Shown here piece by piece: positions 573 through 62,781 of a stretch of DNA of 64,000 bases. Source of the DNA: Selaginella tamariscina. Lineage: Eukaryota; Streptophyta; Lycopodiopsida; Selaginellales; Selaginellaceae. Position 1 is the stretch's first letter, and the number at the start of each line of letters is the position of its first letter. The stretch lies in contig PUQB01000001.1 in the NCBI GenBank assembly GCA_003024785.1, positions 2,431,501 to 2,495,500 of the forward strand, in the 5' to 3' direction. Below the pieces are notes generated by a model. The model saw only the letters and a program-made list of their open reading frames with translations, had not been told where the DNA came from and made no database searches. Made by a program: the position numbers and the translations under genes.

Positions 573-748
573 TGTCACGACCCGATACAGAAACAGGATT
601 CCGGATACAGGACATGGGTTGCAGGATTTTCCTACAGGATACTCCTACCAGGATTCCGGACACAGGATTCGGTTGCAGGATATTCCTACAGGATATGCCA
701 CAGGATATGCCTAGAGGATAAGGGACATGTGGACTCATCTTAGCCTCT

Positions 749-798
749 GCATGCATGCAATCACTTTTGCATGCATGCAACCACTTTTGCATGCATGC
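749..798 (+). promoter_or_regulatory. Three tandem RY/Sph-like elements in U3
   Basis: TGCATGCATGC occurs three times with a 20-bp period, separated by CAATCACTTT or CAACCACTTT. CATGCATG is the RY/Sph core bound by B3-domain factors of the ABI3/FUS3/VP1 type. The block ends about 26 bp upstream of the TATA-like box and is conserved in the 3' LTR (6451-6500). Regulation by B3 factors is an inference from the motif alone. Confidence 0.6.
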
Positions 799-823
799 CT
801 AGATTAGCTCTTGGAGTTGTGAG

Positions 824-831
824 CATAAAAG
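824..831 (+). promoter_or_regulatory. TATA-like box of the LTR promoter
   Basis: CATAAAAG lies about 24-31 bp before position 855, the 5' end of the block that pairs with the primer site. The spacing fits a TATA box for a transcript starting at or next to 855. Confidence 0.55.
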
Positions 832-1158
832 CTCCGACCTAATTGTTGTACAATCAGTTACTATCAACACCAGTCTTACTACGATCAATCTTGTCTTGTC
901 TTGTTCTGTCTTGTTTCCTGTCCTGTTCCTGTCTCGCTCCTGTTTCCTCTGTCCTGTTCCTGTCCTGCCCCTGGATCCTTCCTTGCTCCGGATCCTGTCC
1001 TGTTCCTGTCGCTCCCGGATCCTATCCTTCCTGTCTTGCTCTAGATCCGTCCTGTTCCTATTCCTTTCCTGTCCTGCTCTCGGTCCTGTTCCTGAGTCAA
1101 GCCTTCATGTCCTTGGAATCCTGCTCTCTTCCTGTTTCCTGGATCGTGGCTTGACAGT

Positions 1159-1171
1159 TTGATAGTAACTG
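1159..1171 (+). other. Self-complementary primer-binding site
   Basis: TTGATAGTAACTG begins two bases after the 5' LTR, where a primer-binding site belongs. It is the exact reverse complement of 855-867 (CAGTTACTATCAA) in the LTR, at the predicted RNA 5' end. Pairing stops at both ends of the 13-mer. No TGG-type tRNA-complementary start is seen. This is the layout of Tf1/sushi-group elements, in which the 5' end of the element RNA folds back and is cleaved to prime minus-strand synthesis. Confidence 0.75.
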
Positions 1172-1249
1172 CTTCATAGTTCTCCGTTTTCCAGCTACCT
1201 TTTTCTTGATTCCTTTCCTTCATTTTCCTCCTTTTTTCTTTCCTAGATC

Positions 1250-2227
1250 ATGGCTGATTTTGAGCATTTTCAACACGAGCACCAAATGCTACTTCATGAG
1301 CTGGCCACTTTGCGCCAAGTGGTCACCGACCTGCAAGGTTCCACCACTGCGGCACATGCAGCTGCTGATGCATCCTCCAAGGCTGCTGCGCAGGCTCTCT
1401 CCCAGGCATCGGTGGTTTCCTCTTCATCAAACTTTTCTTCGGAGCCGAAGGTTAGCATGCCAGAGAAGTTCAGTGGTAATCGTGCCGATTTCCAAGGTTT
1501 CCTGAATCAGATCCGACTCTTGATCCGTATGCAACCACGGCGCTACTCGACTGATGCTCAAAAGGTGGGTCTTTTGGCATCCTTACTAAGTGGATCTCCA
1601 CGGGCTTGGGTTGCCCCCTTGCTGGAGCGTGACGATCCACTGATGGAAGACTTTGAAGGTTTCGTGGCTGCCTTTGAAGCCTGTTTTGGAGATCCTGATA
1701 AGTACCGTTCTGCATGCACGAAGTTACGGAAGCTCACTCAAGGATCCCGACCAGCTTCCGTCTATGCATCCGAATTTCAGCAACTTTGCACGAACATTCC
1801 ATGGGACGAGACTGCATTGATCGAACACTTCCGTTTTGGGTTGAGGGACGACGTGAAGGACCTTCTCCTTACGTTACCGGATGCCCAAACATTAGCGGAG
1901 ATCATGCAACAAGCTGTTCGTTGCGACAACCGTTTGTTCGAGCGTCGTCAGGAAAGATCCCGTCAACAGTTCCTGCAAACCAATCCTACAGCTGTGGTAC
2001 ATGTTCCTGCACCACCTTCTGGAGTAGTTCCTATGGAGGTTGAGAAATCCAAGCGTGGCTCTCTTTCCGCTGCCGAGAAGCAACGTCGTCGCAGTGAGAA
2101 CCTGTGCTTGTATTGTGGTGGAGCAGGACACAAGGTGGCAGATTGTCCTATTAAAGCCAGGAACTTCAAGACGCGTGAAGTCGAAGCCGAAGTTCAGTCG
2201 GAAAACTCCAATGTCCACTTCGTCTAG
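1250..2227 (+). CDS. gag: Retrotransposon Gag
   Basis: A 325-residue protein starting at ATG 1250 that forms the capsid and binds element RNA in the virus-like particle. Residues 1-60 are Ala/Ser-rich with a likely coiled coil. The centre has the plant Gag/retrotrans pattern (FSGNRADFQGFLNQI, then a conserved Trp and YASEFQQL). Near the C-terminus is a CCHC zinc knuckle, CLYCGGAGHKVADC. It ends at TAG 2225-2227. The pol frame overlaps it from 2179, one base back (-1). Confidence 0.93.
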   Translation: MADFEHFQHEHQMLLHELATLRQVVTDLQGSTTAAHAAADASSKAAAQALSQASVVSSSSNFSSEPKVSMPEKFSGNRADFQGFLNQIRLLIRMQPRRYSTDAQKVGLLASLLSGSPRAWVAPLLERDDPLMEDFEGFVAAFEACFGDPDKYRSACTKLRKLTQGSRPASVYASEFQQLCTNIPWDETALIEHFRFGLRDDVKDLLLTLPDAQTLAEIMQQAVRCDNRLFERRQERSRQQFLQTNPTAVVHVPAPPSGVVPMEVEKSKRGSLSAAEKQRRRSENLCLYCGGAGHKVADCPIKARNFKTREVEAEVQSENSNVHFV

Positions 2228-5200
2228 GAGCCGCGAAGTTGGACGTAGGTGCAGGCTCCATTGGTGCTGCTCATACCATCCCGTCACTTAAGTTTCCTGT
2301 ACACATTCATCTTAATAATCGAGAGCTCATGGAGTTTGCCTTGTTAGACACTGGTGCAAATGCATGCTTCATGGATGACACGTTTGCAACTCAACATGGC
2401 ATTTCGGTGGTGAAGTTGAAGCGTGCAGTTCCTGTAGAGGTGGCCGATGGGCGTCTAATTGCTTCCGGTGCAGTTACCCATGCTACCGAACCTCTCTCCT
2501 GCAGGTATGGCACATTCAACTGTTCAATTTCCTTCAACTTGATCAAGACTCGGTCGACTCCCATCATTTTGGGCATGCCATGGTTCGTTGTTGCAAATCC
2601 GCAGATCGACTGGAGGTCTAGGACACTCACGTTTTCCTCTCCAACTTCTAGGATCAATCCTGTACCTTCCTGCGTGCAGGATACATCCTTAGTATCTGAG
2701 GCAGTACAAGCTACAGGATTGACCGTACCTGTTCCTGTACCAGTGTTGAAGACTCCTCCTCGACAGGATTCACCTCATGGCAGTTCCTCAGCACATCCGC
2801 AGGCTCTCCCCATTCCTGTAAGTTTGCGGTGTCCTGTACAGGGTTCTTCCAATCCTGTATCAGTGTCGAAGGTTCCTCCTCAACAGGATCCACCTCCTGT
2901 TGATTCGTCAGCACATTCGCAGGCTTCTTCCACTCTTGCGCAACCACGGACTCCTGTACAGGATTCTTCCAATCCTGTACACTCACGGTGTCCTGTACAG
3001 GATTCTTCCAATCCTGTACACTCATCAACAACCACACAGGTTTTTTCCAATCCTGCTTCTTTCTGTTACCCTGCCTCTGTTCCATCCCCCAAGATCCTTC
3101 CTCTTTTTCAGTCACAGCTCCCTCCTTCTCCTCTCCGAGTTCTTACCACTACCATGCATGAACTCGCCACTGATCCTGCCCCCTTCCACCTTTTTGCTTT
3201 TCAAGTAACTCCTACGTCCTCTCCTACCTTTCCTGTATCCGACTCCCCTGTTTTTTCTCCTTCTCCTTCTCCTTCTCCTCCTTCTTCCCTACCATCCAAG
3301 TACCACGACTTTAAGGACGTTTTTGACAAGCACAAGGCTGCAGTTCTTCCTGTTCACAGGTCCTACGACTGTCCTATTGATCTTGCGGAAGGAAAGACTC
3401 CACCATTCGGACCGATCTATGCATTGTCACCCACAGAGTTGGAGGTTCTTCGTCAATACATCGAGGACAACTTAGGATCCGGCTTCATTCGTCACTCAAA
3501 GTCCCCTGCAGGAGCTCCTATCTTCTTTGTCAAGAAGAAGGATGGGAGTTTACGTTTGGTGGTGGACTACAGGGGTTTGAATCAAGTCACCATTCGGAAT
3601 CGGTATCCGTTGCCATTGATCCCGGAACTTCTCGATCGGCTGCGAGGGGCAAAGGTGTTCACGAAGATCGACTTACGAGGAGCCTACAACCTTGTACGGA
3701 TTCGTCCCGGCGATGAGTGGAAGACTGCCTTTCGTACAAGGTATGGACATTTTGAGTACACGGTAATGCCTTTCGGCCTTACCAATGCCCCAGCTGTATT
3801 CCAACACATGGTGAACGACATTTTCCGTGACTTCTTGGACCAGTTTGTGGTGATCTACCTCGACGACATCTTGATTTTCTCCAAGGACCAGGCGGCACAT
3901 GACAAGCATGTACGACTAGTTTTAGAGCGGCTTCGCGAGCATGGCCTGTACGCGAAGTTGGAGAAGTGTTTTTTCGATAGGGATTCGGTGGAGTTCTTGG
4001 GCTACATCGTCTCTCCTGCTGGCGTTTCCATGGACATGCACAAGGTGAAGACCATCGTGGAGTGGGAGAGGCCCAAGTCGGTACGAGATGTACAATGTTT
4101 CCTTGGCTTTGCAAACTTCTACAGGCGGTTCATACAGGACTTCTCCAAGCGTGTACTTCCACTCACAGAACTCACCAAGCGCACAGGACTTTTCTCTTGG
4201 TCCGACAAGGCGGAACACGCGTTCACAACACTCAAGGACGTTTTCACGACAGCTCCGATTTTAGCACATCCTGACCCTTCTCATCCTTTCTTCATTGAAG
4301 CAGATGCCTCGGATTTTGCAGTAGGATCCGTCCTATCGCAAGTTGGAGAGGACAAGTTGCTTCATCCTGTAGCCTTTCACTCTCGTAAGTTCCTGTCGGC
4401 GGAGATCAACTACGAGATTCATGACAAGGAACTCAAGGCCATTGTGGATTCGTTTGAGGAATGGCGGCATTTCCTGGAAGGTGCTGCACATCCTGTACAA
4501 GTTCTTACGGATCACAAGAACCTGGAGTACTTTCAAACGGCTCGGGTCCTCAGTCGGCGACAGGCTAGGTGGGCAGAGTTCCTATCACGTTTTGACTTCG
4601 TCATCGTCTACAGGCCCGGCTTTCGGAATGGCAAGGCGGACGCATTGTCTAGGCGCTCTTACCTTGCACCAAGCCCGGGCGATCCTGCATTTGACGGTCA
4701 AAGGCAAGTGTTGTTGGGTCCTGATCGTTTCCGGCTTGCGGCACTGCAGGTTCATCAGGCTCCAGCAAATTCAACACTCCTACAGGACGTTCGTTCGCAG
4801 TTGCCTACAGACGACTTGGGAAAGAATGTGTTCTCACACATTCATCCTGACGTTGCAAGTTCCTCTTCCTCCAGTTCCCGTCCAGACTACAACCTATTCA
4901 CCATACAGGATGGACTCCTGTACCGGGAAGGTCTCCTGTACGTTCCTGTTGGTATTTCTAGGACTCGTGTGGTACAGGATTGTCATGATACCCCGGCTAC
5001 AGGACATTTTGGTGTGGCCAAGACAGTGGAATTGGTGACTCGCAACTATTGGTGGCCTGGGTTGCGAGGTTTTGTGGAGAGGTTTGTACGGAGTTGTGAC
5101 ACTTGTAGCAGGTCGAAGATGCCTCATCATGCACCCTCTGGTCTTCTTCGTCCTCTTCCTGTTCCGTCTGCTCCTTGGAGATCCATTTCTATGGATTTCC

Positions 5201-5916
5201 TCACAGATCTTCCTCCTTCCCGTGGATTTGATGCAGTTCTTGTGGTGGTTGACCGTTTCACCAAGCAGGCTCATTTCCTACCCTGCAACAAGACAGCTAC
5301 AGGTCAGACAACTGCCGAGTTGGTGATCCGCGAGGTGTTCCGACATCATGGTCTTCCTGAGAGCATTGTTTCCGATCGAGGTCCACAATTCATGTCCAAG
5401 TTTTGGCGAGAGCTTCTTCGGAGTCTACAGGTCAAAGCGGATCTTTCTTCAGGATATCACCCACAAACCGATGGGCAGTCCGAACGCACAATTCAGACCT
5501 TAGAACAGTATCTTCGTTGCTTCATCAGTTACCAGCAGGACAACTGGTTGGACCTCCTTCCAATGGCAGAGTTTGCCTACAACAACTCCATCCACGCATC
5601 TACAGGACAGACACCTTTCTTTGCTCTTACAGGCCACCATCCACGTTTTGACTTTGCTCCTACCGCTTCTCCTTCTTCCGCTCCTGCAGTACAGGATCGT
5701 CTTCAGCATCTTCGGCAGGTACAGGATGATCTCCAGGTTCATCTTCAACAGGCACAGGAACGATACAAGCATCATGCTGATGCTCACGACAGCCGGCACC
5801 TGCATACAAGATTGGTGATCTCGTGTGGCTTCTTCGTCGACACATTCGCACCAACAGGCCTTCTTCTAAGTTGGATTTTCAACGATTGGGCCCTTATAGG
5901 ATCGTGGCGGAGGTAA
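2179..5916 (+). CDS. pol: Retrotransposon Pol (protease, RT, RNase H, integrase), lacking its C-terminus
   Basis: This frame is open from 2179, just after a TGA, and has no obvious ATG of its own. It was probably expressed from gag by a -1 shift, or was once fused to it. In order it has an aspartic protease (LLDTGANACF), a Pro/Ser-rich linker of about 230 residues with a 13-residue repeat (2952-3029), and reverse transcriptase with YLDD in the active site. RNase H (EADASDFAVG, DHKNLEY) and integrase follow. Integrase has an H-H-C-C finger around CDTC, the first catalytic Asp in MDFLTDLPPS, and GYHPQTDGQSER near the catalytic Glu. A one-base loss near 5790 sends the frame into unrelated sequence that stops at 5916. 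The proper continuation is in the next entry. Confidence 0.93.
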   Translation, partial: SRSRSSVGKLQCPLRLGAAKLDVGAGSIGAAHTIPSLKFPVHIHLNNRELMEFALLDTGANACFMDDTFATQHGISVVKLKRAVPVEVADGRLIASGAVTHATEPLSCRYGTFNCSISFNLIKTRSTPIILGMPWFVVANPQIDWRSRTLTFSSPTSRINPVPSCVQDTSLVSEAVQATGLTVPVPVPVLKTPPRQDSPHGSSSAHPQALPIPVSLRCPVQGSSNPVSVSKVPPQQDPPPVDSSAHSQASSTLAQPRTPVQDSSNPVHSRCPVQDSSNPVHSSTTTQVFSNPASFCYPASVPSPKILPLFQSQLPPSPLRVLTTTMHELATDPAPFHLFAFQVTPTSSPTFPVSDSPVFSPSPSPSPPSSLPSKYHDFKDVFDKHKAAVLPVHRSYDCPIDLAEGKTPPFGPIYALSPTELEVLRQYIEDNLGSGFIRHSKSPAGAPIFFVKKKDGSLRLVVDYRGLNQVTIRNRYPLPLIPELLDRLRGAKVFTKIDLRGAYNLVRIRPGDEWKTAFRTRYGHFEYTVMPFGLTNAPAVFQHMVNDIFRDFLDQFVVIYLDDILIFSKDQAAHDKHVRLVLERLREHGLYAKLEKCFFDRDSVEFLGYIVSPAGVSMDMHKVKTIVEWERPKSVRDVQCFLGFANFYRRFIQDFSKRVLPLTELTKRTGLFSWSDKAEHAFTTLKDVFTTAPILAHPDPSHPFFIEADASDFAVGSVLSQVGEDKLLHPVAFHSRKFLSAEINYEIHDKELKAIVDSFEEWRHFLEGAAHPVQVLTDHKNLEYFQTARVLSRRQARWAEFLSRFDFVIVYRPGFRNGKADALSRRSYLAPSPGDPAFDGQRQVLLGPDRFRLAALQVHQAPANSTLLQDVRSQLPTDDLGKNVFSHIHPDVASSSSSSSRPDYNLFTIQDGLLYREGLLYVPVGISRTRVVQDCHDTPATGHFGVAKTVELVTRNYWWPGLRGFVERFVRSCDTCSRSKMPHHAPSGLLRPLPVPSAPWRSISMDFLTDLPPSRGFDAVLVVVDRFTKQAHFLPCNKTATGQTTAELVIREVFRHHGLPESIVSDRGPQFMSKFWRELLRSLQVKADLSSGYHPQTDGQSERTIQTLEQYLRCFISYQQDNWLDLLPMAEFAYNNSIHASTGQTPFFALTGHHPRFDFAPTASPSSAPAVQDRLQHLRQVQDDLQVHLQQAQERYKHHADAHDSRHLHTRLVISCGFFVDTFAPTGLLLSWIFNDWALIGSWRR

Positions 5917-6263
5917 ATCCTGTAGCTTTCCGACTCGAGTTACCATCCACGGTGAAACTTCATCCTGTGTTTCACACCTCTTTGTTGGAGCCGTATCATC
6001 CTTCTTCTCTTCCTGGTCGTGTTTCTTCTCCTCCCCCTCCTGTGGTCATTGACACGGAACCTGAGTACGAAGTCGCAGCCATCCTTGACTCTCGTCTTCA
6101 TCGTCACCAACTCCAATACTTGGTGGATTGGAAAGGGTACCTGCCTACTGATCGCACTTGGGAACCTGCATCCAACTTACTCCATGCTTCTTCCAAGGTT
6201 GCTGCCTTCCATCGGCATTATCCTGCTAAACCAGGTCCCAAGACTCGTGGAACTCGTCTTTAG
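5790..6263 (+). pseudogene. Integrase C-terminus with GPY module and chromodomain (frameshifted end of pol)
   Basis: This is the true end of pol, in the -1 frame. It shows the integrase C-terminal pattern (YKIGDLVWLL), a GPY module (LGPYRIVAEV, then LHPVFHTSLLEPY) and a chromodomain from EYEVAAILDSR through YLVDWKGY to TWEP. The three aromatic cage positions expected for methyl-lysine reading (Tyr, Trp, Trp) are present, as in chromoviruses that target heterochromatin. It ends at TAG 6261-6263, inside the polypurine tract. It is separated from pol only by one missing base, and the codons on both sides look well preserved. Confidence 0.88.
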
Positions 6264-6274
6264 GGAGGAGGTGC
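6261..6274 (+). other. Polypurine tract
   Basis: TAGGGAGGAGGTGC lies directly before the 3' LTR start TGTCAC at 6275. It is the expected plus-strand primer of reverse transcription and overlaps the pol stop codon. Confidence 0.8.
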
Positions 6275-6844
6275 TGTCACGACCCGATACAGAATACAGG
6301 ATTCCGGATACAGGACATGGGTTGCAGGATTTCCTACAGGATACTCCTACCAGGATTCCGGACACAGGATTCGGTTGCAGGATTTCCTACAGGATATGCC
6401 ACAGGATATGCCTAGAGGATAAGGGACATGTGGACTCATCTTAGCCTCTGCATGCATGCAATCACTTTTGCATGCATGCAACCACTTTTGCATGCATGCC
6501 TAGATTAGCTCTTGGAGTTGTGAGCATAAAAGCTCCGACCTAATTGTTGTACAATCAGTTACTATCAACACCAGTCTTACTACGATCAATTTCGTCTTGT
6601 CTTGTTCTCGTCTTGTTTCCTGTCCTGTTCTGTCTCGCTCCTGTTTCCTGTCCTCCTGGATCCTCCTGCTCCGGGATCCTGTCCTGTTCCTGTCTGCTCC
6701 CGGATCCTATCCTGATCCTGTCTTGCTCTTAGATCCGTCCTGTTCCTATTCCAGTTCCTGTCCTGCTCTCGGTCCTGTTCCTGAGTCAGGCCTTCCTGTC
6801 CTTGGAATCCTGTTCCTTCCAGGTTCCTGGATCGTGGCTTGACA
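6275..6844 (+). repeat. 3' LTR
   Basis: Matches 573-1156 across its whole length with small indels and substitutions, for example GAATACAGG against GAAACAGG near the start. The CAGGAT cluster, three RY units, TATA-like box and the self-priming 13-mer (6556-6568) are all kept. Confidence 0.96.
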
Positions 6845-7435
6845 GCCCAAAACCTGGCCAAGAACCCTAATCCCTTGCTACACACCTAAAAAGGCCCTCT
6901 CCCTCCACATGTCCTTCTCTTGTTCATCCTTGAGTCATCGTTTAGTAACTATTCATTCCATGTCAAATGCCACATATACTAGAAAATTCTAGTGCATCAT
7001 TCTTCTACAACATCAAATCGACCTGCTACATATGTAACGGCCTTCTCTTCCCTTCCAAATATGCATCTACTCATGCATCTACAAGATTACTTAAAAGATA
7101 TGGTTGGCTTAAAAAAAAACCCCATGGACCACTAGGAAATCTCTTACAACTCCTAGATTTGTTTCACATATGTAGGCCATATCAGTCCACACATGGAGAC
7201 ACACACACACACTATATATATATATATAAATATAGTTTGTGAATTCATAATCTTAGTGTAGGTATATACTTGGTACACAATCGCAAGTATTATTGTGCAA
7301 CTTGGACAGGAGCCCATCGGCCACTATCAATTCACATTGCCTAGAGGAACACACCGCATAAACCAATGGCCACTCCACCCTTAGTCGATATCTATCACAT
7401 GGAAACTGCCTCACAAGCTAAATATATGTCAAAGC
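6845..7435. repeat. Right half of the interrupted repeat
   Basis: 6845-7040 aligns with 9680-9870: the order gcccaaaacc, then ccttgctacacacc, then aaaaaggcc, then attcattcca is shared. A (CA)n(TA)n tract lies at 7200-7228. 7381-7430 resembles 9190-9240. No gene is supported. Confidence 0.7.
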
Positions 7436-16447: not shown

Positions 16448-17683
16448 CTAACTCGGAGTGAAAGGCTTCTGGATTGTGTTACAGAGTATGACATAAGGTG
16501 AACTTGCCTGGGGATCCAATGGAACGAGGCTCTTCATTGCCTGCGAAGCGATTCTCACGTCCTTGTAGCTTGTAGAAGCTGCAAGAAGAGACCGCCAGTC
16601 CTCGCGAATGGGCAGGAAAGGCTGGGTGTGGATGAGTTCCTCGGCTGCCTGTAGGTGTCTGGCTTTGGAAAGAAGATCAATCATGCAACTAAAGTGTTGC
16701 TTGGATGGACTCAGACCGTAATCGGCCTGGATCGAATGGAAACACGACCTCCCGAGACTCACGGTTCCGCAGCGAACACAGGCAGCGAGTACGCACACCA
16801 TGCAAACGTCGTCCGGCAAGTCGGTTGTGTTCATGGTGTGGAACACGTCTAGTACGCTCTCGAAATGCCCGGTTCGGGCATATGCGAACATCATCGAGTT
16901 CCACGAGATGAAGTCGTGCTCCGGCATTCGATCGAATAGTAGTTTTGCTTCTTTGACATCCCCTTTGTGTGAATACAGGCACAGCATAAGTGTCCATGCG
17001 ATGAAGTTCCGCTCCTCCATACTGTCAAACACTGCTTTGGCCTCCGAAACATACCCATTCTGTGCATAGGCACCAACCATGACTGTCCATGTAACCACGT
17101 CCTTGTCTGGCATGGAGTCGAACACGAACTTGGCTTCCTCCAGATGCCCATTCTGGGCATACGCGGTTTGCAATGAGGTCCAGCAGACCATATCCCTCTC
17201 GGGCATCTGATCGAAGACGGTCCTGGCAAGCTCTATATGCCTGTTCCGCGCGTATGCGTCTAGCATGGTAGTCCACGAGACGAGGTCCCTCTCAGGCATC
17301 TCATCGAATACTTGCTTGGCGTCGTCGATATACCCATACCGAGCATATGCAACTAGCATGGCAGTCCTTGTAAACATGTGCTTCTGCGGCATTGCATCGA
17401 ACAGTTTCTTTGCTTCCTTGATATGCCCGTTCCGGGCATATGCGGACATCATCACGTCCCAGGATAGGCTTGTCTTTCGTTGGATCCGATCGAAGACTCG
17501 CCTCGCCAGTTCCGGGCTCCTACATTTTCCATACATGTGCACAACCATGTTGCTCAGTAGCACGTCTGTTTCTAGTCTGGGCTGCATTCGTGCATGCAGT
17601 TCTCTGGCTTGTGAGAGAGTTCTGCAGCTCTTGGTAAGTTGGAGACATGTACGCCTGTCTAAAGCTCTTGTATTGCTCTCCAT
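16448..17683 (-). CDS. PPR protein A, PLS-type with partial E1 region
   Basis: Single exon of 411 codons from ATG 17683-17681. About nine PPR motifs follow, most of 31 residues and of S type (for example AYARNGHIKEAKKLFDAMP). After them comes a weak E1-like segment (PFLPIREDWRSLLAAS, then DPQASSPYVILCN) that stops before any E2, E+ or DYW domain. PPR proteins read organellar RNA one base per motif and direct processing, stabilisation or C-to-U editing. Without a DYW domain an editing role would need a partner enzyme. An organelle presequence is not obvious, so the true start could differ. The PrmC gene starts 25 bp away on the other strand. Confidence 0.9.
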   Translation of the reverse strand: MESNTRALDRRTCLQLTKSCRTLSQARELHARMQPRLETDVLLSNMVVHMYGKCRSPELARRVFDRIQRKTSLSWDVMMSAYARNGHIKEAKKLFDAMPQKHMFTRTAMLVAYARYGYIDDAKQVFDEMPERDLVSWTTMLDAYARNRHIELARTVFDQMPERDMVCWTSLQTAYAQNGHLEEAKFVFDSMPDKDVVTWTVMVGAYAQNGYVSEAKAVFDSMEERNFIAWTLMLCLYSHKGDVKEAKLLFDRMPEHDFISWNSMMFAYARTGHFESVLDVFHTMNTTDLPDDVCMVCVLAACVRCGTVSLGRSCFHSIQADYGLSPSKQHFSCMIDLLSKARHLQAAEELIHTQPFLPIREDWRSLLAASTSYKDVRIASQAMKSLVPLDPQASSPYVILCNTIQKPFTPS

Positions 17684-17708
17684 CAAGTGATGGGATTAGG
17701 GTTCTTAG
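17684..17708. promoter_or_regulatory. 25-bp divergent interval between PPR-A and PrmC start codons
   Basis: Both ATGs are the first in their frames. Any shared promoter must lie in this gap or inside one of the coding regions, so the 5' UTRs are either very short or overlap the neighbouring gene. This is sequence-based inference; no motif is claimed. Confidence 0.5.
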
Positions 17709-18810
17709 ATGGCTGTTCATCTGGTCGTGCCGCTTTGTGAACGACCGGCTTCCGTATCAACAACTCTGGCCAAGCTTCTTGCATGGCGGACCCAGGCACG
17801 CAGCAGGGCGGCATCGATAAACTTCTCACAGGTAGATGGTGGGCCGGATTCTGAAGAGCTTCACATGGAGATAGACTGGCTTTTAGATGATGTAGTTGCT
17901 GAATCCGGTAAGCATTCTGGGTGGAAGCAGCTGAAGGGATGCGCACAGAATGCAGGTGATATGCAGATTTCTTTGCGGGCAAACCTGGAAGAGCTAGATG
18001 AGCTCTGCAGAGAGAGAATTGAGCAGAGGAGGCCATTCCAATATATTGTGGGATGCGCCCATTGGAGAGATTTCGTGCTGGGTGTTCAGGAGGGAGTTCT
18101 TATTCCCCGGCCGGAGACGGAGCAACTGGTGGATCTGGCAGCTGCGACAATGGAGAGAAATAATGGCTATCTCAGGAGCGGCATCTGGGCCGATCTGGGA
18201 ACCGGAAGTGGTGCAATTGCGATGGGAATTGCTCAGGCGCTGCGTGGGAATGGGTGTGTGATCGCTGTTGATATGAGTGATATTGCAATCGCTGTCTCCA
18301 ATGCCAATATCCATCGCTACAAACTCGAGGTTGGTGTCTTGTCACAATGTTCATTGATAGATTCCATGTGGATCGTTTTCAGGGAGTTGTGTCTGTTGTG
18401 AAAGGCTCGTGGTTGGCTCCACTAGAAGAGAAAGCCGGTGAACTGTCTGGAATTGTGAGCAACCCACCTTACATCCCTTCGGAAAGGTTTCCTAGTTTAC
18501 AAGCAGAAGTTGGCAAACACGAGCCAAAGTGTGCATTGGATGGTGGTGTACAAGGAACTGACCATCTTCTACAGATCTGTGATGGAGCTTGTTGGTCTCT
18601 AAAACCCGGTGGTTTCTTAGCACTGGAGGTAGGTTTTTATATTTGTTTGCTTCCAAGTTGTGATTGATCATGCTCATGGTTTTGTAGACTGATGGAGATG
18701 AACAAGCACAGACTATTGCGAAGTATTTGTCAAACAAGGAGTTTAAAGACATTGAAGTCGTCAAGGACTTTGCAGACATAGATCGTTTTGTGACAGCATT
18801 TCATATTTGA
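17709..18810 (+). CDS. Release-factor glutamine N5-methyltransferase (PrmC/HemK family)
   Basis: Exons 17709-18329, 18383-18628 and 18688-18810, with GT-AG introns of 53 and 59 nt. The protein has about 329 residues, near the family norm. The N-terminal 45 residues are Arg/Ser-rich and acid-poor at first, resembling an organelle transit peptide. The substrate-helix region has RRPFQYIVG, then IPRPETE. The S-adenosylmethionine site is DLGTGSGAIA, and the catalytic NPPY motif is in exon 2 (IVSNPPYIPSER). The family methylates the Gln of the GGQ loop of class 1 peptide release factors, here probably those of chloroplast or mitochondrion. The introns rule out bacterial contamination. The frame is intact throughout. 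Confidence 0.95.
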
Positions 18811-21734
18811 AACCTGGGTTACTCAACATGATCACATGGACACATGACATGAAGCAGGCAAGTTCAATCTCAAATATATTTATTATGCGTGCGTGCGTGT
18901 GTGTGTGTGTCTATATATATATATTATATATATATATATATAAGAAGTATATAAAAGAAGTTTCAAGTTTGCATTAATCTGAACAAACATCCCCATCCTC
19001 CACATAAATTCTACCTGTCTTGTGTGTGTGTGTGTGAGTTTAAATCTATATGTGATACTAAGCATCATATGAGAGTTTTACAAGATAATAAAGCTTTCAG
19101 ATAAACTGGCACTAACTTAATTTTATTCTGAGTGTTAAATTTTATTTATATTATAATTACTGTAAAAGAAGTTGAATTATAATTTTAAACATTTACTTAC
19201 CTTCACTTTCAAATATTGAGGTTGAGCTTATGTATTAGATTTAATAGATGATCTTAGATTTATATCATTAAATGCTAGATCTACCAATATAAACCAGATT
19301 TAATAATGTATATATCATAATCAACTAATATAGATAGACAAGTTATAATACTAGATATTATTTGTTATTATTGAAATATAAATATAAAACTACAATCACA
19401 ATAAACTTATAATTAGATTTACTTTTACCCAAATAAGATAAACTATAATAATATAAAAATTTAAGAAAAAAAAAATGAAAATGTAAATAAATGATATGTG
19501 TATATATTAGTTATCTAGCCCCCAAACTTGGCCTAATTCATTTAGTATCCACACTTCTTCAAAACAATGACCATGTGAAACATAAACACATAAATAAATA
19601 TATTGAGTTACATTACATACATGTACATAATCTTATACATCAATTTAATAAGACTTTTTCAAAAGATTTAAGTTTTTGAGATTGATTTATTATCTTAATA
19701 ACTTTATCTACCATTTATATTTATATAATTGTAATATTTTAATAAAACACTATATAAACACTCAAATTTTTTTTCATATTTCTTATTAAGCACCATAGGA
19801 AGTGCATTTAAGTCCATATAAATAATTTTTCTTAATAAAATTATCTAAAGTGTAATACAATGTATTTTTTAAAGTTGAAAAAGAAAACCTAAAGATATCA
19901 TTCATTTTATTCAAAGCAAATCTAAAATTGTAAATGTAAATATATATATTATAATTATTTTATCTTAATTTATACATATATTTAAGTCAATTGTACATTT
20001 ATTAATGTAATTTGCATACACTTGTAATATTTAATTTTTAATGGTCCTAAACATTTAAACCTTCTTTATAGTGAATATATATGCAATGTTATTACTCATA
20101 TTTAAAACATTATTTATATCGTATGTCTCAGTTTTAAATCATATGGTACAATCTCTTTTAATTATAATCAATTTAAATTAAGATAATGACATTATCTTAT
20201 TATAAATTTTTCATTTAAATTTTGCATTAAAAAATGTTGTTAAATTTCTGAATGAAAGGGTTTTTAAAAATAAAAATAAAATAAGTAAATAACACATAAC
20301 CTAACGTAATAATTAAATTAAAAACAATTCAACATAAAAACGATAGAGAAGATAATAATGATACAAAAATCAATTTAATAATGAAAAATACATAACTCAT
20401 ACCATCACAATATAAATAAAATAACTTACATATACCATAAATATGTCACATATAAGAAGCAAATGATAAATAGTTTTGAACCTTTTATAAACAAACCCAA
20501 TATAAATATAATATCTTCTGCTTGTTAATTATGTATGTCTTTTATATATATTTTAATTATTAAAAATATAGATTAAGCTTTTAACAAACATAAGTAATAA
20601 AAAGATACTAAAGGGAATGGGAATTTAACTAATAATAACATTAACATATCAAAGTAACATAACAAATGAATAAACAAAAATTATTATAAGTATAATAATT
20701 AAAGAACAAAAAAGTTATACATGTTCGCATACAAAGTAAATTTATATGAATCAAAATGAAGAAAAAATAGTTATATATTTATATTCTTATATGGAATTAA
20801 GTAAAAATAATGTAAATTAATAAAATAATCAAGTTAAAAATAATATTGTTAAAATTTTAACCTAGTGAATTAATCACTTATGTAAAAGTTATGTAATATG
20901 TAAAACCTTTTTCATTTATTCCACAAATATCATATTTTGAACTAGATTGACTACATAGATAAATATTATAAAATATATCACAAATTGACCTTAAAAATAA
21001 TAGGTCATAACAAAGATAAATAAATGAATAATAAATCTATTTAGATAGTAAGAAGTATTAATAAAAAACTTAAAATTTAATATACAAAATGGAAACATTG
21101 GAGAATGTTTGTATTTTTTTTATGTTGTCATAAAAGACATAAAACATTGCATTTATCTTTATATTTATATAAAATTAAAACTTGCATACACTTTAAAATA
21201 TATCATAAATGAATAACTTCATTTAAATAATATAATAAAACTTTTTAAACACAAAATGTTGTGTGTTAAAATAAAAATAAATTATTATCCTTCATCATCA
21301 TTTAAAATCTTTATATATATGTAAGGTTCATGTTCTTATTTAAACGTAAACATTAAAAGTAAGATTACATAATTTATATTTAAATAAATATTAAAGATTT
21401 CAATGTTAAGATGTAGAATTAAAAGATATATATCTTTAATATATTACATTAATCTTATCATCAAAATTTACCAAATTAAAATATAAGAAGGTAAAACACA
21501 AATGATTTTCATTTTAACATTAGCATTTAAAATTGAAGCCATAATTACAAATTCATTTAAAAAAATTATCTAATAGTTTTTAACCAAGTTTAATATAAAA
21601 AATTATTTAAATAAACCACTTTAGTTAAAAATTATTTAAATATCCTTATTATTATTGTATTTATTTACTTTTAATTATATATTCAATATGTAGCAAATTG
21701 GAATAATATAAAATGAAGTTAATTATATATACAT

Positions 21735-21766
<32 letters not shown>

Positions 21767-22195
21767 GTATGTATGTATGTATGTATATGTATATACAAAT
21801 TAAGTTAAGTATAAGAAATGCCATAATTTCTTAAATTTTATTACGATAAATATGTTTAATTAATTAGTTAAATATTTTAATTATAAACTTTATTTATTTT
21901 AAAAAAATATTTTCTTGAAGTGTATAGAGTTTAAATTGAATTTTGAGCAATAATTAAGGTATATATATATATATATATATATAAACTTTTCCCTTTATTT
22001 ATATAATGTGTCTCCATTATTTAAATTTTACACGTGTTTAAACATAAATATATGTGTTTATCGAGTGTGTGTGTGTTTTTTAAAGTTGTAAATAAAATAT
22101 ATATTAATAATAAATTGTACGATAGCTGCATATAATCTTCTAAGTAAATTCATTTATCAGTTGCATATGTGATCAGTGTGGAGCATAAGCCCCTG
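18811..22195. other. AT-rich gap without genes
   Basis: About 3.4 kb, strongly AT-rich between 19080 and 22160, in sharp contrast to the genes on both sides. It has (TG)n and (TA)n tracts at 18894-18942 and 19021-19036, (CA)n plus GTAT repeats at 21733-21790, and (TA)n at 21961-21982. No open frame with a domain was found, and no terminal repeats of a transposon were recognised. Confidence 0.65.
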
Positions 22196-23904
22196 ATGGT
22201 CCGTATTTCGTTGTATTCTCGCCTACATTTTCAGCACCATGTACTTCAAGCAATCCGTACAGTCCGGGATGTGAAGCATGTCTCCAGCAGCCTGACAGAA
22301 GCCGTGAGATGGCTTGAACAATGGGACCGAGGAGATAACAAGGACGCATACTTCTACCTTCTCCGCAGATGTATCAAACACAAAGCACTCCCAGAAGGCC
22401 GCAGATTACACGCTCTCATCCGGCAACGAAGATACGACTACGATGGCTTCTTGGGGACTCTTCTCATCAAGTTCTATGGAGAATGCAATTGCCTCGATGA
22501 GGCACGGTCCGCTTACGACTCACTTCCCACTTCAAACTCCATGTTGGCACTCAACAACTTGCTCGAAGCATACATTTCCAATAGCCAGATTGAACAGGCA
22601 AGGCAGTTGTTTGACAGCGTATCTAGGAAAGACTCCAAAGTCTGGGATACCATGATCTCAGCATATGCCCAGAAAGGGGATATGAACGAGGCTAAGAATC
22701 TCTTCAAGCAGGCCAAGGAGCCGGGCACGGAGCTCTGGGCGACACTCATTAAGGGCTACTCGAGTATCAGAAGGCTTGACAAGGCCCGAGTTATCTTCCG
22801 GATGGCTCCTGGCGACGAACGTGTGTGGAATGCAATCATCGCTGCATATACCCAGAATGGAGATATCAAAGAAGCCAGAAGCTTACTGAACCGGATGAGG
22901 AACCCGAGTGTTCCCACCTGCAAGCTGCTCTTGGATGCATATCTGAAATCTGGCCACATAGCTGATGCCGAGGCTGTGTTCAACAGGATAACCAGTGTGA
23001 GTGAAGCTCCGTGGTCGACCATGTTGGCAGCATATTTGGAGACCGGCCGTTTCTCAGATGCCAAGCATACTTTCAAGATGATGCCCAACAAGGACTCGTC
23101 TTCATGGAATGCAATGATCCGAGCTCATGCACTCCGTGGTGAGCTTGAAAACGCAAGTACATTGTTTGAGGACATGGGAAAGATGAGGAACTTGGAATCA
23201 TGGAACCTGATATTGGAGGCGTATAAACAACATGGACGTGCAGGTGATACATACAAGATCTTCAGAGGCATGAAGGAAAGATATGTGAAGCCGGACAAGG
23301 ACTCTTTCACCACTTTGATCAGCGGCTGTTACGACTTAAAGGAAGCTGACAGAGTTCTTAAAGAAGTAGAGTGGAGTGTGTTCATACGGGACGTAGATAT
23401 CAATAACGAGTTGATCAGGATGTACCTGAGGCTCGAGGTGCTCAACGGAGCAGAGTCAGTGTTTACAAAGCTCGAGATGAAGAATGCCGAGTCTTGGATA
23501 CTGATGGTATCGGATTTGCCAAGTTGGGATCTTATAAAGAAGCAGTGGAGCTTCTTCCGAGGATGGTTATTGAAGGGTTTATGCCAGATAACAGTGTGTT
23601 TGAAAGCATGGTTTCAGCATGCTCTCAACTTGAAGACGCTGGAAAATGTTTCCGGTGTATGATCTCGGACTACTACCTGAGTCCGAGCTTGCCCATGTAT
23701 GTACGCATGGTTGAGCTTCTCAAGAAACCCAATGAAGCTGAGGATTTGGTAAACAGTATGCCCTTTATACCAGACAGATCTGTCTGGACGGCTCTTCTTA
23801 CTGTTTGCGACAAGGCTGGGGATGCGTCCCGTGTCAAGGTTGCGCAACGTGCGTTGTCACAGATGAACTATGAAGTGAGAGCTCGTTCATCAATGTATAA
23901 TTAA
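22196..23904 (+). CDS. PPR protein B (one frameshift)
   Basis: The first in-frame ATG is 22196 (MVRISLYSRLHFQ). The N-terminus is Arg/Ser/His-rich and could be a mitochondrial presequence. About a dozen PPR motifs follow, mixing 31- and 35-residue types (AYAQKGDMNEAKNLF, AYTQNGDIKEARSLL). At 23510-23514 the frame moves by -1, from ILMVS into GFAKLGSYKEAVELL. It then runs cleanly through the last motifs and an E1-like segment (SMPFIPDRSVWTALLTVCDKAG) to the stop at 23904. The single missing base is the only lesion. The stop is 8 bp from the stop of the convergent PPR-C. Confidence 0.88.
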
Positions 23905-23912
23905 TGTTGGTG

Positions 23913-25895
23913 CTAGTCGTTCTCAACATAGATATTTGATAACAACACGTAATCTGAAGAAACATCCAGCTTCATATCTATCATTCTTGTTGCAGCCCGT
24001 TGTCCAGTTTCTATGTCCCCGTGCATTCTACAAGCCCCAAGTAGTGATCTACACACAGTAATCTGCGGAAGAAATGGCATACACATTACCAACTCTTCGG
24101 CTTCCTTTACACGTCCGGACCTTCCAAGTGCATCCACAACGCAGTTGTAATGTTCCGAGCACGGGACTACAAAATGGTCCGAGATCATTGAGAGAAACCG
24201 CTCACGGCTGTCATCTGGAAGTCCCTTCTGACTATGTACCATAAGCAGAAGAACAAATGTGATATCATCGGAGCGAACACCCTCTAAACACATATTCACA
24301 AAGAGTTGGAAAGCTTTCAGGTGATACCCATTGTGTGCATATGCAGCTACCATTGCATTGTACAATATGCAGCTTGCACCTTTGAGCCGATCGAAAACCT
24401 GTCTTGCTTTCTCAACGAGTCCACCCCGTGCATAAGCAGTGATCATTGTTGTTCCGGATGAAATATCTCCACCATTTGGCATTTCAGTGAAGAGTCTCTC
24501 TGCTTCAAGCAGATGCGTACCACGGGCATATGCGGTAACGAGCGCATTCCACGGCACCTCATCTCTCACCGGCATCTTGTCGAAGAGTTCTTTTGCCAAA
24601 CGCAAACTGTCTTGCTGCTGACAAACAGCCTGAAGCATAGCATTCCATGACACAGAATTCCTGTAGAGCATGTCATCGAACACGCATTTTGCATCTGGCA
24701 GGATCCCCTTGCTCCCATATGCGGTAATCATCGCGTTCCAAGTCGTCATATTCTGCATCGGCATTCGATCAAGCAGTTCTTTCACCTTCTGCATATACCC
24801 TTCCCGGGCATACATCCCGGCAATTGCATTCCAAGACACAACATCCCTGTCTCGCCCATCTTTGAACATTCCCCATGCTATATCTACATGACCATTCTCC
24901 GCATACGCAACCAACATGGTTGTCCACGACACAACATTCGGCTCCGGCATTCTGTCGTAGAAACGTTTCGCTTCCTCCAGATACCCGTTCTGGGCATCCG
25001 CTGCAAGCAAAGAGTTCAAGGACACAGAGTCCCACTGCGGCATTCTTTGAAACAGATCTCGTGCCTCGGGCAGACTTCCTGTCTGAACATAAGCCGTGAA
25101 CATAGCGTTCCATGATACCACACTTCTTTCATCCGACCTCTCAAACACTGCCTTCGCATCTTCAATATGCCCATTGTCACCGTACTTTGAAACAAGAACT
25201 GTTGACAGTAACACTGTCCGAGAAGGTATTGCTTCATAGAGAGCCCGAGCTTCACGAATTGTTCCATTCTCTGCATATCCTGCAATCACCGAAGTATGAG
25301 AAGAAGTATTGTGAAGAGGCATCCTGTCATAGCATCTCTTGGCCTCTTCCATGTGCCCATTCTGTGCATACCCTGCTAAGGTAGCATTCCAGGACACTAT
25401 GTCTCTGTGGGCAAGCGAGTCGAACATCTCTTTCATCTCCCGTAAATGCCCAGATTGGGCATTGGCTACGAGGGCAGAAGTCACGGTTACCAAGTCCCAG
25501 CTGGGCATCCTCGTCAGGAGAAAGAAGGCATTCTCTACATCTCCTGCACCGGCAAAGCCACTGATGAGTGTTGTCCAGGAAATTGCATCTCGATCGTGCA
25601 TCAAGTCGAACACAGACTTGGCATCCTGCAAATGTCCATTCTGCGCAAATGCACGAGCAAGGATGTTCCATGAGAAAAGATTGGGATCGTGAATGGAGTC
25701 GAAGGTTTGTTTTGCTTCGCTCAAGCTACCGCACTTGCCATACATCTCCACCACGAGATTGGATAAGCACCGGTTTCTCTTGTGTGGGCTTGCAAGTATC
25801 CTCCGATGTACTTCCTTTGCAAGCAACAAGTCCCCTGAATCTCCACATGCTTTCACAAAACCAACAAGCTCTTCCTTTAGTACAGCTCGTCTCAT
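23913..25895 (-). CDS. PPR protein C, array of S-type motifs
   Basis: An intact single exon of 660 codons from ATG 25895-25893. After a short leader it has roughly 17 PPR motifs, nearly all 31 residues, with consensus AYAxNGHxEEAKxxFDRMPxxDVVSWN. The last part matches the start of an E1 region (MPFLPQITVCRSLLGAC, then SSDYVLLSNIY) and ends there, before E2/DYW. Predicted role is organellar RNA recognition. It is convergent with PPR-B (8 bp between stops) and divergent from PPR-D (71 bp between starts). No clear transit peptide is visible. Confidence 0.93.
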   Translation of the reverse strand: MRRAVLKEELVGFVKACGDSGDLLLAKEVHRRILASPHKRNRCLSNLVVEMYGKCGSLSEAKQTFDSIHDPNLFSWNILARAFAQNGHLQDAKSVFDLMHDRDAISWTTLISGFAGAGDVENAFFLLTRMPSWDLVTVTSALVANAQSGHLREMKEMFDSLAHRDIVSWNATLAGYAQNGHMEEAKRCYDRMPLHNTSSHTSVIAGYAENGTIREARALYEAIPSRTVLLSTVLVSKYGDNGHIEDAKAVFERSDERSVVSWNAMFTAYVQTGSLPEARDLFQRMPQWDSVSLNSLLAADAQNGYLEEAKRFYDRMPEPNVVSWTTMLVAYAENGHVDIAWGMFKDGRDRDVVSWNAIAGMYAREGYMQKVKELLDRMPMQNMTTWNAMITAYGSKGILPDAKCVFDDMLYRNSVSWNAMLQAVCQQQDSLRLAKELFDKMPVRDEVPWNALVTAYARGTHLLEAERLFTEMPNGGDISSGTTMITAYARGGLVEKARQVFDRLKGASCILYNAMVAAYAHNGYHLKAFQLFVNMCLEGVRSDDITFVLLLMVHSQKGLPDDSRERFLSMISDHFVVPCSEHYNCVVDALGRSGRVKEAEELVMCMPFLPQITVCRSLLGACRMHGDIETGQRAATRMIDMKLDVSSDYVLLSNIYVEND

Positions 25896-25966
25896 CCATC
25901 AAGGGAAGAACCCTAAAACAGAGGGAGGAGTGCGAGGAAGAAGAATGTAGGCCGAGGCTATGGTGG

Positions 25967-28148
25967 ATGATCTTGATATGCGGCTTAACACAGCAGGTTC
26001 GCACATACACAAGTGTTGCATGCAGAGCATCCTTGAATCCGCTTGTAGAGGCGCTGGCGGCCGCCATAGAAGAAGGCAAGTCATTAGACAGAGCTCTTGG
26101 AGGAAGAGCATTAGGAACCTCCATTGTAGCCTATGTGATGAGAAGGGTTGATCCTGACTCTGCCAAGAGCTTCTTCTTCTGGGCATCTCAACAAGTGGGT
26201 TTCTCACACAATTGCTACACTTTCAACACTCTGTTAGAAGTGTTTGTCAATTCTGGACGGATCTCGGAAGCTCGGGAGATGTTAGCAGGTGGGTTCTTCA
26301 GAGCAAATGTAGGCAGCTACAACACGTTGATTCAAGGGATATGCGAAACAAGAGGTGAAGAAGTATTAGAAGCTCTCGAGTTGCTATACCAGATGAGGCA
26401 TGTTGGTGTGCGTGAGAATCCCAGAACCTATATGTTTCTGTTGCGAGGAATTGCTCGTGCTGGGATGGTTGCAGTGGCTCTGAAGTGTTACAGAGATGTT
26501 CCAATCCAGCTCGATGTGGTAGTGGTTACTGCATTCATAAGCAGTCTCTGTAAGACGGGATATATAGATGAAGCTCTGGGAGTCATGTCCGAGATGAGTT
26601 CGAACATTGTGACATACAATGTTCTGATTGATGCACTGTGCAAGGGACGGAGGATATCCGAGGGGTTTGCTCTTTTCAGGAAGGCCCTTCTTTCTGGGCT
26701 GAAGCCCAATGTTGTGACGTATACCAGTCTCATATACGGGCTATGCAGGATTGGTGAGGTTGATTCTGGATGCAGTCTTCTGAAGGAGATGCTCGAAAGA
26801 GGCTGTGCTCCGAACACAGTGACTTACAACACTTTGGCAAATGGATATGTAGATCAAGGTCGTGCATATGACGCATTTGCTCTTCTTGAACAGAAGAGTT
26901 TTAAACCAGCTCGTGTCACATTCGGTGTGATTGTCAAAGGTCTGTGTAAACTTGGGCGTCTGGAAGAAGCTTATGGTGTGGTAGAAGAGATGGTTAGCAG
27001 GGGAATCACTCCGGATGTTGAGATCCATACAGTACTCACTGATGCATTGTGTAAGCAAGGAAGATCGATGCTGCTTGGTATGTGTTTCGTGGGGTTGTTC
27101 AGGCTGGATTCACCCCAGATGTCGTCATATACAGTGTACTTGTTGATGGATTTTGCAAAGCAGGCAGGATAGAGGAAGCCTTTGGGATGTTACAGACGAT
27201 GGTGGAGAATGACTGTGAGCCAGACGTGTATACATTCACCATTGTGGTGGATGCTCTGTGCAAGGCGAGATACCCAACCGGGGCATACGAAGTGTTCGAG
27301 GGGATGTCCAAAGTGGGTATATTGCCAGACGAGGTGGCTTTTGATGCAATGTTTAACGGGCTTTGCAAGGAAGGGAAGATGGATCAAGCATGCGAGATTC
27401 TGAGGACAAAAGCAGGAGTTTTCACATATAGCTCCTTGCTACAGGGTCTCTGCAATATCATCAACAGAATAGACGAGGCACTGCGGCTGCTTAAGGACAT
27501 GCCTAGAATGGGTTGTGTTCCTAATGCGGTGTGTTTCAATGTAGTGATGAACGGACTTTGCCGGGCACGTCGGGTTGAAGAGGCTTATCAAGTTTACCGG
27601 GCAATGAACGATGCTGGATGTGTTGGAGATGTCATTACTTACATATCTTGTTACACGGACTTTGCAAGGTAGGCAGGATCACAGAAGCTTATGAACACGT
27701 TGAGAGCATGACATATATAGAAGGATGCAGTCCGAACGTGGTGACTTATACGACACTTATTAAAGGGCTTTGTGATGCCAACAGAGTAGAGGAAGCTTGT
27801 AGAGTTTATGAGAAGATGGTCGAGAGTGTTCCTCCTAACGAGTTTACTTATGGGTTGCTCATCAGTGGACTATGCAAAGCTGGGGAATTTGAGAGAGTGA
27901 ACCACGTTTTTGAGCACATGCTGTCGAGAAATGGGGGTGAGTACGCAGAGGTACTGGTTGCTGGACTTGCAAGAGATGGGAGAGCTATGGTTGCTTATGA
28001 GATGGTTAGACAGATGATGAGTAAGGGATTCTCACCGAGTGGTGCTGCATGTAGTGCTGTTTTGGATGCTCTGTGGACATCCGGATGCATGGAAGAACAC
28101 AGGCTGCTTGTTGATGAGATTATCAAAAGAGCATCCATTCGAAATTGA
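25967..28148 (+). CDS. PPR protein D, P-class (two frameshifts)
   Basis: ATG 25967 is the first Met in frame after the divergent PPR-C start. Segments lie at 25967-27062, about 27063-27650 and about 27650-28148, each in the -1 frame of the one before. Together they give about 725 residues with some 16 motifs of 35 residues, of the type YNVLIDALCKGRRISEGF and TYTSLIYGLCRIGEVD. P-class proteins stabilise, splice or process organellar transcripts. The missing bases are near 27060-27064 (GGAAGATCG, where an extra A restores KIDAAW) and near 27645-27652 (before LLHGLCKVGRI). Motif phase is kept across both breaks, so the ancestral gene was continuous. The epoxide hydrolase starts 84 bp downstream. 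Confidence 0.88.
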
Positions 28149-61259: not shown

Positions 61260-62781
61260 GTGTTTAGTATGACCACAGATAAGCTATTGGAACACATCAT
61301 ATTCAAGAAGGGCATCATAATAGACCTAAGGGTGGTACCAGAAATGCCAGATCCCCAAAATGTTACTAAGTTCATGTGGTTCTTGGGGAAGGTAAGATTC
61401 TATTGTAAGTTCATTAGGCAGTACACTAACATGGCCCAACCAATGACTGAGCTACTTGCAAAGAAGACACCATACAAATATCGATAGCGAGTGTTTGAAG
61501 ACATAAAGTGTCAACTAGTGGAGGCACTCATTCTCATTCCACCCAATTAGAATCGACAATTCCACATACAAACGTACAAGTCTAACATGGTAGCGGGTGC
61601 CATTTTATCACAAGAAGATGAAGTGTGGATGTTGTGCCCCATCACATATGGGAGCCAGCTCATGACACCAGCCGAGTCTAACTATTTAGTGACGAATAAA
61701 GAGTGCCTGACAGTGATCTATAGAGTCTTAAAGTTTCGCCATTACTCTCGGGCAACCACTTTGTGTTGATCATGGACCACCACATCTTACTGTAACTAGC
61801 GAGGTGGATCCTCTTATTGTAAGATTTTGACTTTATTGTGATCCACAAGGCAGATAAACTATATGTCTCTCTTGATCTCTTGTCTAGAATACCGAGCGGC
61901 AAGTGACCCTAATCTGCACCGCTACTTGACATACCAGTTGTCAACCTCTCTGAAGCAACAGTGGAACAACACGACCCGTCAAAAATCAACATGTTGACAG
62001 ATGACACAGGGGTCTCAGAGTGGCAATAATCGATACGTCACTACCTCAACGAGGGATTTAACATACTCTTAAGGATGTCCCCCAACCGTAGATGCAGCCT
62101 CACTCAAAGCACCTTGACATTTCAGTTAATAAGAGACCAACTATATAAGCAGGGAGAGACGACATTCTTTGGAGATGTCCCTGGGAAATCCCTAGGATAC
62201 TCGGGGTAGCACATGCGATACTAGATGCTAGACACTTCAGAGGGGAGAAAACAATTAGGAAGATCCTGCATATGGGATTATGGTTACCAATGATCTTCGA
62301 AGATGCCACAAGAATAGTGAGGAGTTACAACGATTACTAGTGGATCAGTTGATTGACAACCAGCCAAGGTGTGGAATACCACCCATCAATAGGGATGTTG
62401 GCGTTTGAGAAGTGGGAGTTAGACTTCATACGATTGATCAATTTGAAGGCCCACCCAATACACTCCAGGTACAATATGGTGGCAACAGATTACACCACGA
62501 AGTGGGTAGAAGAAAAGGCAGTTAAAAAGGCAACAACGGGGCAAACGACCAAGTTCATTTATGAGAATATCCTGACGAGGTCCAATTGTCTACTAGAGCT
62601 AGTGTTGAACCAAGGGAGCCACTTCATCAATGAAATGGTCTGCAAGCTGGTTAGCACGTTCATCATCAAGCATTGCATGTTAACGGCTTACTACCCACAA
62701 GGGAACAAACATGTAGAGTCCACCAACAAGACATTAGTGACTATCTTTAAGAAGCTTTTCCACAACAAACCCCAACGGTGA
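61260..62781 (+). pseudogene. Decayed Ty3/gypsy pol fragment (RT end, RNase H, integrase)
   Basis: Separate pieces lie in the normal pol order. 61260-61487 is the end of reverse transcriptase (VTKFMWFLGKVRFYCKFI, then AQPMTELLAKK). 61587-61769 is RNase H (VAGAILSQED, NYLVTNKECLTVIY). 62353-62781 is integrase core (KWELDFIRLI, VATDYTTKWVEEKA, GSHFINEMV, AYYPQGNKHVESTNKTL). The integrase wording is that of plant non-chromodomain (Tat/Athila-side) gypsy elements, so it is a different lineage from the 573-6844 element. Catalytic residues are partly replaced (NQGSHF for DNGTQF), and stops and shifts divide the parts. LTRs were not found. Confidence 0.82.

Follow-up and report, generated by a model that had tools for sequence, protein, structure and literature searches.

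In Tf1 of Schizosaccharomyces pombe, reverse transcription is primed by an 11-nt primer, which RNase H releases by cutting behind base 11 (PMC7175516). Three duplexes are described for Tf1 in a paper on S. osmophilus (PMC10085805), and a self-primer has been described for Tj1 (PMC4600332). Among plant elements, Neumann et al. 2019 predicted self-priming for the majority of the Tcn1 elements of mosses and club-mosses and also for TAR elements, and tRNA priming is usual in plant chromoviruses other than Tcn1 (PMC6317226). The TAR lineage (Houba, Osr-1) resembles the element described here in being a plant lineage with predicted self-priming but belongs to Ty1/copia, a different superfamily. For SM-Tcn1 of Selaginella moellendorffii, the accessible part of Novikova et al. 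2010 (PMC2864245) gives evidence for neither tRNA priming nor self-priming; SM-Tcn1 is reported there without a recognizable primer site, unlike the element under study. In the literature searched, as far as the texts were accessible, self-priming of plant Tcn1 elements rests on prediction, and covariation or other comparative evidence for it was not found. Arms that differ strongly between elements and yet pair are good comparative evidence. The present element represents another family from another species, in which the prediction is tested by covariation. Self-priming of this kind was already predicted for plant Tcn1, and the element is a better supported new case.

The element occupies positions 573–6844 of the forward strand of the window (the whole 64-kb stretch of DNA analyzed) and is flanked by identical copies of a GCCCA target-site duplication (568–572 and 6845–6849). 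Its 5' LTR (573–1156, TGTCACG...TTGACA, with TG...CA ends) is 93% identical to the 3' LTR at 6275–6844. The gag gene (1250–2227) encodes 325 amino acids and matched Pfam Retrotrans_gag (1.3e-13). An open pol frame, counted from stop to stop (2179–5916), covers reverse transcriptase (RT), RNase H, and most of the integrase, as evident from Pfam matches of its pieces to RVT_1, RT_RNaseH, Integrase_H2C2, and rve. The end of pol, with SH3_Tf2-1 and a chromodomain, is read in another frame (5781–6263). A change of the pol frame close to where the integrase ends interrupts the window copy. The chromodomain (Pfam Chromo, 3.1e-14) contains the motifs EYEV and DWKGY, which by eye supply Y, W, and Y at what we take to be the aromatic cage positions. 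The polypurine tract AGGGAGGAGGT, followed by GC, was read directly at 6262–6272; TAGGGAGGAGGTGC stands ahead of the 3' LTR in 27 of the 32 host copies printed with a tract. A comparison with Rfam at gathering scores gave no match.

Like Tf1, the element has a predicted RNA 5' end complementary to a site after the LTR, with a second duplex adjoining. The preliminary description had noted that 855–867 (CAGTTACTATCAA) is the exact reverse complement of 1159–1171 (TTGATAGTAACTG) and that the same 13-mer is kept in the 3' LTR, and sequence comparison agreed on both counts, the 3' LTR copy being found at 6556–6568. The putative primer-binding site had been placed two bases inside the 5' LTR. The offset of 2 nt is correct, but it has to be counted from the LTR end into the internal region, the spacer GT (1157–1158) coming before the site. 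The arm at 855 lies about 30 nt downstream of the TATA-like box CATAAAAG (824–831, read directly), as had been stated, and judging from this distance the 5' end of the RNA is expected at 855 or 856. The 64-kb window contains a single copy of TTGATAGTAACTG, and the complement of this 13-mer is confined to 855 and 6556. When 2000 dinucleotide-shuffled versions of the LTR were compared with the 25 nt that follow it, the longest complement did not exceed 11 nt (reached by three of them), and 2845 other 25-mers sampled from the window likewise gave complements to the LTR of at most 11 nt (three reached 11). In each of eight elements, the full site was matched by none of 2000 shuffles of the element's own LTR piece; the first 8 nt of the site alone were matched 0 to 12 times per 2000. 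The predicted pairing probability of the arms in the window is 0.94; the 5' RNA as a whole is not unusually stable (z −1.13).

Relatives were sought in a single scan of genome contigs, which provided 18 MAG loci, all retroelement contigs within prokaryotic assemblies. The presence of eukaryote-type retroelements (L015–L032) in prokaryotic assemblies, a Trichormus MAG for example, is probably due to contamination. In six of the 18 loci (L015, L016, L018, L019, L020, and L031), the longest pair upstream of gag measured 11–12 nt and was placed as in the window. L135, which came to light when two of these MAGs were searched subsequently, is a seventh relative with an 11–12-nt pair at the same two places. 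L021, whose gag is in pieces, has 7 paired bases left. L022 is more distant (58% RT identity); it has a 13-nt pair between its likely LTR and the bases that follow (L022:5832-6041), and its TATA-like box is by eye off the usual distance. Pairs of at least 10 nt were absent from the upstream stretch examined in L024, L025, and L026, and in the other loci the region was missing or nothing there was assignable. The LTR end of the relatives was read from the conserved ...ACA, as their contigs carry at most one full LTR. With this reading, the spacer between ...ACA and the primer site is 2 nt in the window and in all seven relatives with intact arms, and the TATA-like box precedes the arm by 29–33 nt in the same elements. 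The sequence CACCAGT (868–874 in the window) directly follows the primer arm in six of eight aligned elements, with CACAAGT in L018 and L135. Viral contigs were also searched: a peptide scan with the window RT gave no match, a 17-mer scan returned 14 contigs with no retroelement protein among them (best RT E-value 0.58), and of 298 stretches matched in an alignment-based scan none was confirmed.

Pairs of 10–13 nt also occur elsewhere in the contigs of L019–L025 and L027–L031. A bare pair in a contig therefore means little, and it is position and covariation that count. When the primer sites of seven elements (the window element and the first six relatives) were matched against the LTRs of all seven, pairing extended over 11–13 nt with the own LTR or one of identical type and over 4–7 nt otherwise. 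In an alignment of the same seven rows, 88.4% of the cells were paired, compared with 31–51% in slid controls; the former value leans towards structure because the arms around which the rows had been cut were already known to pair. Both sides had changed in 13 of 21 pairs, nine of them in the primer duplex, and this is not explained by the choice of rows alone. None of 500 shuffles reached any of five covariation measures. L018, L019, and L031 share one arm type (as does L135), so the seven rows amount to five types, and L020 is one compensated pair apart from the type of L018. The preliminary description had raised the matter of the two arms changing independently in relatives; in these retroelement contigs from prokaryotic assemblies, they covary instead. 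Chance complementarity, which the 10–13-nt pairs elsewhere in some contigs might suggest, is contradicted by the shuffles, the fixed position, and the covariation, and we regard its probability as negligible.

A scan for the complement of a tRNA 3' end detected no TGG between 1148 and 1240, a stretch that includes the LTR end, and ARAGORN found no tRNA within the window. The absence of TGG from the LTR end to 1240 speaks against pairing with a tRNA 3' end. It proves nothing on its own, since some chromoviruses without TGG (Skipper) also lack the self-complement, according to the accessible part of the source. A tRNA, or a fragment of one, acting as the primer in the manner of other plant Ty3/gypsy elements, and as is usual in the plant chromoviruses outside Tcn1, is nevertheless very unlikely here, because the primer sites of the relatives differ from each other and still match their own LTRs.

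Self-priming is the best reading of these results, as the arms covary, the arm sits at the expected distance from the TATA-like box in the window and in seven relatives, and no TGG occurs up to 1240. The placement of the element with Tf1/sushi rows in the RT tree (see below) further supports this interpretation, which the preliminary description had put forward. Its presentation of Tf1-like self-priming in a plant chromovirus as out of the ordinary needs qualification: the mechanism is supported, but in light of the prediction by Neumann et al. 2019 (PMC6317226) it is not unexpected for the clade. Judged from its sequence, the element is with high probability a Tcn1-like chromovirus in the Tf1/sushi group, resident in a Selaginella-like plant, and would prime its own reverse transcription. 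Transcription would start at about 855/856, and the first 12–13 nt of the RNA would fold back onto 1159–1171, the junction being shaped by a second duplex of 1096–1103 with 1148–1155. The RNase H of the element's RT would then cut just behind position 867 or thereabouts, and synthesis from the 3' end released there would run across the GT spacer and on into U5. As the plus strand would acquire its primer site by copying the primer itself, a change at the RNA 5' end would be carried over into the site. Such copying would explain why the arms change together. The paired arms fix the expected RNA start and cut positions and thereby render both measurable.

Pairing alone is no proof of priming, and cleavage is a prediction. 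The arms might pair for RNA packaging, circularization, or translation control, with something else serving as the primer. In the window and the seven relatives, however, only 2 nt separate the end of the duplex from the LTR, at the point where minus-strand synthesis must begin, and a tRNA-type site was not seen in the window, which makes a role of this kind improbable.

The self-primer of Tf1 measures 11 nt, whereas 12–13 nt are predicted for the window element. The second duplex of the window element consists of 8 bp between GTCAAGCC (1096–1103) and GGCTTGAC at the LTR end (1148–1155). It is modest (5 of 200 shuffles were as good), and its partner lies 228 nt downstream of the primer, which is a difference from Tf1. 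L015, L018, L019, L020, and L031 have a duplex of 7–10 bp that extends from exactly 5 nt after the primer to 3 nt before the site, with 2, 4, 2, 0, and 115 of 200 shuffles as good, respectively. The second duplex of the window element is placed elsewhere than in most relatives, and that of L016 is no better than chance (151/200). A third duplex of the Tf1 type was undetectable in the window, where 130 of 200 shuffles were as good. It stands out only in L020 (0/200); L019 yielded 22/200, and the other five elements yielded 129–192 of 200.

Further copies were analyzed in the host assembly (300.7 Mb in 1391 contigs). A first set was made up of the best 30 of 40 loci scored by similarity to 800–1260, the window's own locus included. 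Both arms were unchanged in all 30, although U5 varies; in the 3' LTR stretches of 20 loci, 19 arms were readable, of which 18 were intact and one carried a deletion. A second set of 30 loci was picked by gag similarity to L016. Every one of these has a pair of at least 12 nt, and 28 passed a CA-plus-2-nt filter, L089 and L093 being the exceptions. In the 28, the arms lie between 103 and 332 nt apart, implying that they stay while U5 is rebuilt. As the arms are unchanged, no covariation between them exists in the host copies, which add conservation only. Among 29 parsed 5' LTRs of the second set (one further locus was unparsed), the second-duplex motif reads GTCAAGCC in 24, GTCAAGCT in two, and a one-base deletion form in two, and was not found in one; besides the 24 intact motifs, two of these 29 have a G.U pair. 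A sister subfamily in the same genome (L083–L088 and L090–L092) has the same primer arms, a U5 of about 100–117 nt, and TATAAAAG at the position of the TATA-like box. Both flanks were read in 27 copies; in 14 of these, the target duplication does not match exactly, in two cases by a single base. Recombination or assembly joins would account for copies without a matching duplication.

The RT tree was calculated for 41 rows (the window element, 15 of the 18 MAG loci, and 25 of 120 listed proteins) and rooted at the midpoint. It is split into 31 and 10 rows with 100/100 support. The window element sides with the vertebrate sushi and fungal Tf1/sushi rows, and the opposite side is made up of four rows from seed plants, five from green algae, and L029. 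Within the larger group it falls into a separate clade of 13 rows (100/97), the other members of which are unnamed metagenome and MAG sequences. Some long branches are unsure (L030 and a Berkeleyomyces row). Host, chromodomain, and clade point to membership in Tcn1, the tree itself containing no named Tcn1 sequence. With the plant Tcn1 chromoviruses of mosses and club-mosses, for the majority of which self-priming has been predicted, the element shares a pol with chromodomain and a host that is not a seed plant. The latter is evident from a neighboring lipase-type gene, for which S. moellendorffii is the closest named match (62% identity; next named match, 47%). For a pentatricopeptide-repeat gene in the window, S. 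moellendorffii provided the best match by score (30% identity) and two partial matches (46–49% identity over 56% of the query) among the best 120 of 4266 matches. We regard the host as a Selaginella species distinct from S. moellendorffii. At 16448–28148, several open frames similar to pentatricopeptide-repeat genes are found near one another, and a weak RT-like fragment at 61263–61888 is 26% identical to the RT of the window element. A sigma-70-type promoter scan was set aside as inapplicable to a plant.

Six relatives (L016, L018, L019, L020, L031, and L135) have a hairpin of 12–13 bp, interrupted in L020, across the predicted start. It comprises the primer arm together with about 20 nt that precede it. 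In these six elements, 0 or 1 of 1000 shuffles were as stable; they represent three arm types, as four of them share one. The hairpin is absent in the window (557 of 1000 shuffles as stable) and in L015 (480/1000), as well as in L022 and the decayed L021. Such a hairpin was not found in the titles and opening parts of abstracts of literature on self-priming with a hairpin. The hairpin could make the primer copy of the 3' LTR inaccessible. We tentatively consider a structural switch that picks the active primer copy, although we would not expect it to be correct: a third covarying copy of the site in U3, just upstream of the predicted start, would form the hairpin and mask the primer copy close to the RNA 3' end, and the RNA 5' end, which would start inside the hairpin, would be free to prime.

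Within single insertions, the U3 parts of the LTRs agree, but the R-U5 parts often differ by several percent, as seen for the window element and 25 other host pairs (of 41 pairs attempted, 26 could be parsed in full). In the window pair, U3 has 0 differences in 284 positions and R-U5 has 21 in 279 (868–1156 versus 6569–6844). Corresponding values were 4/1250 for U3 versus 67/1128 for R-U5 in four duplication-flanked copies of the first set, 39/2434 versus 85/2132 in eight duplication-flanked copies of the second set, and 17/4009 versus 211/3676 in 13 pairs without matching duplications. Some pairs (L050, L096, L111, and L087) have no excess in R-U5. Possible causes of the difference are low-complexity misalignment, assembly error, recombination, or reverse transcription from two RNAs. 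The last would fit priming in trans, in which the primer would be the 5' end of a different RNA copy packaged in the particle; this is a form of self-priming and overlaps with the explanation preferred here. Two co-packaged RNAs could give LTRs that agree in U3 and differ in R-U5, and pairing cannot separate cis from trans. Folding in cis is strongly predicted, though, and the R-U5 difference has the other possible causes named, so we judge a primer in trans to be rather unlikely and retain self-priming in cis. If the primer switch were true, the switch and the R-U5 differences together would mean reverse transcription from two RNAs, with LTRs that are not made alike. If the R-U5 differences are real, insertion ages estimated from LTR divergence would be misleading for this family. 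Both the start hairpin and the LTR pairs alike in U3 and different in R-U5 look newer than self-priming itself. Finally, GTCAGGCC takes the place of GTCAAGCC in 14 of the 35 3' LTRs parsed but in 0 of the 41 5' LTRs, the window included, a count in which the 5' LTRs of the first set (about half of all 5' LTRs) had been chosen by similarity to the 5' end of the window element. In the second set alone, GTCAGGCC was present in 4 of 17 3' LTRs and in 0 of 20 5' LTRs.
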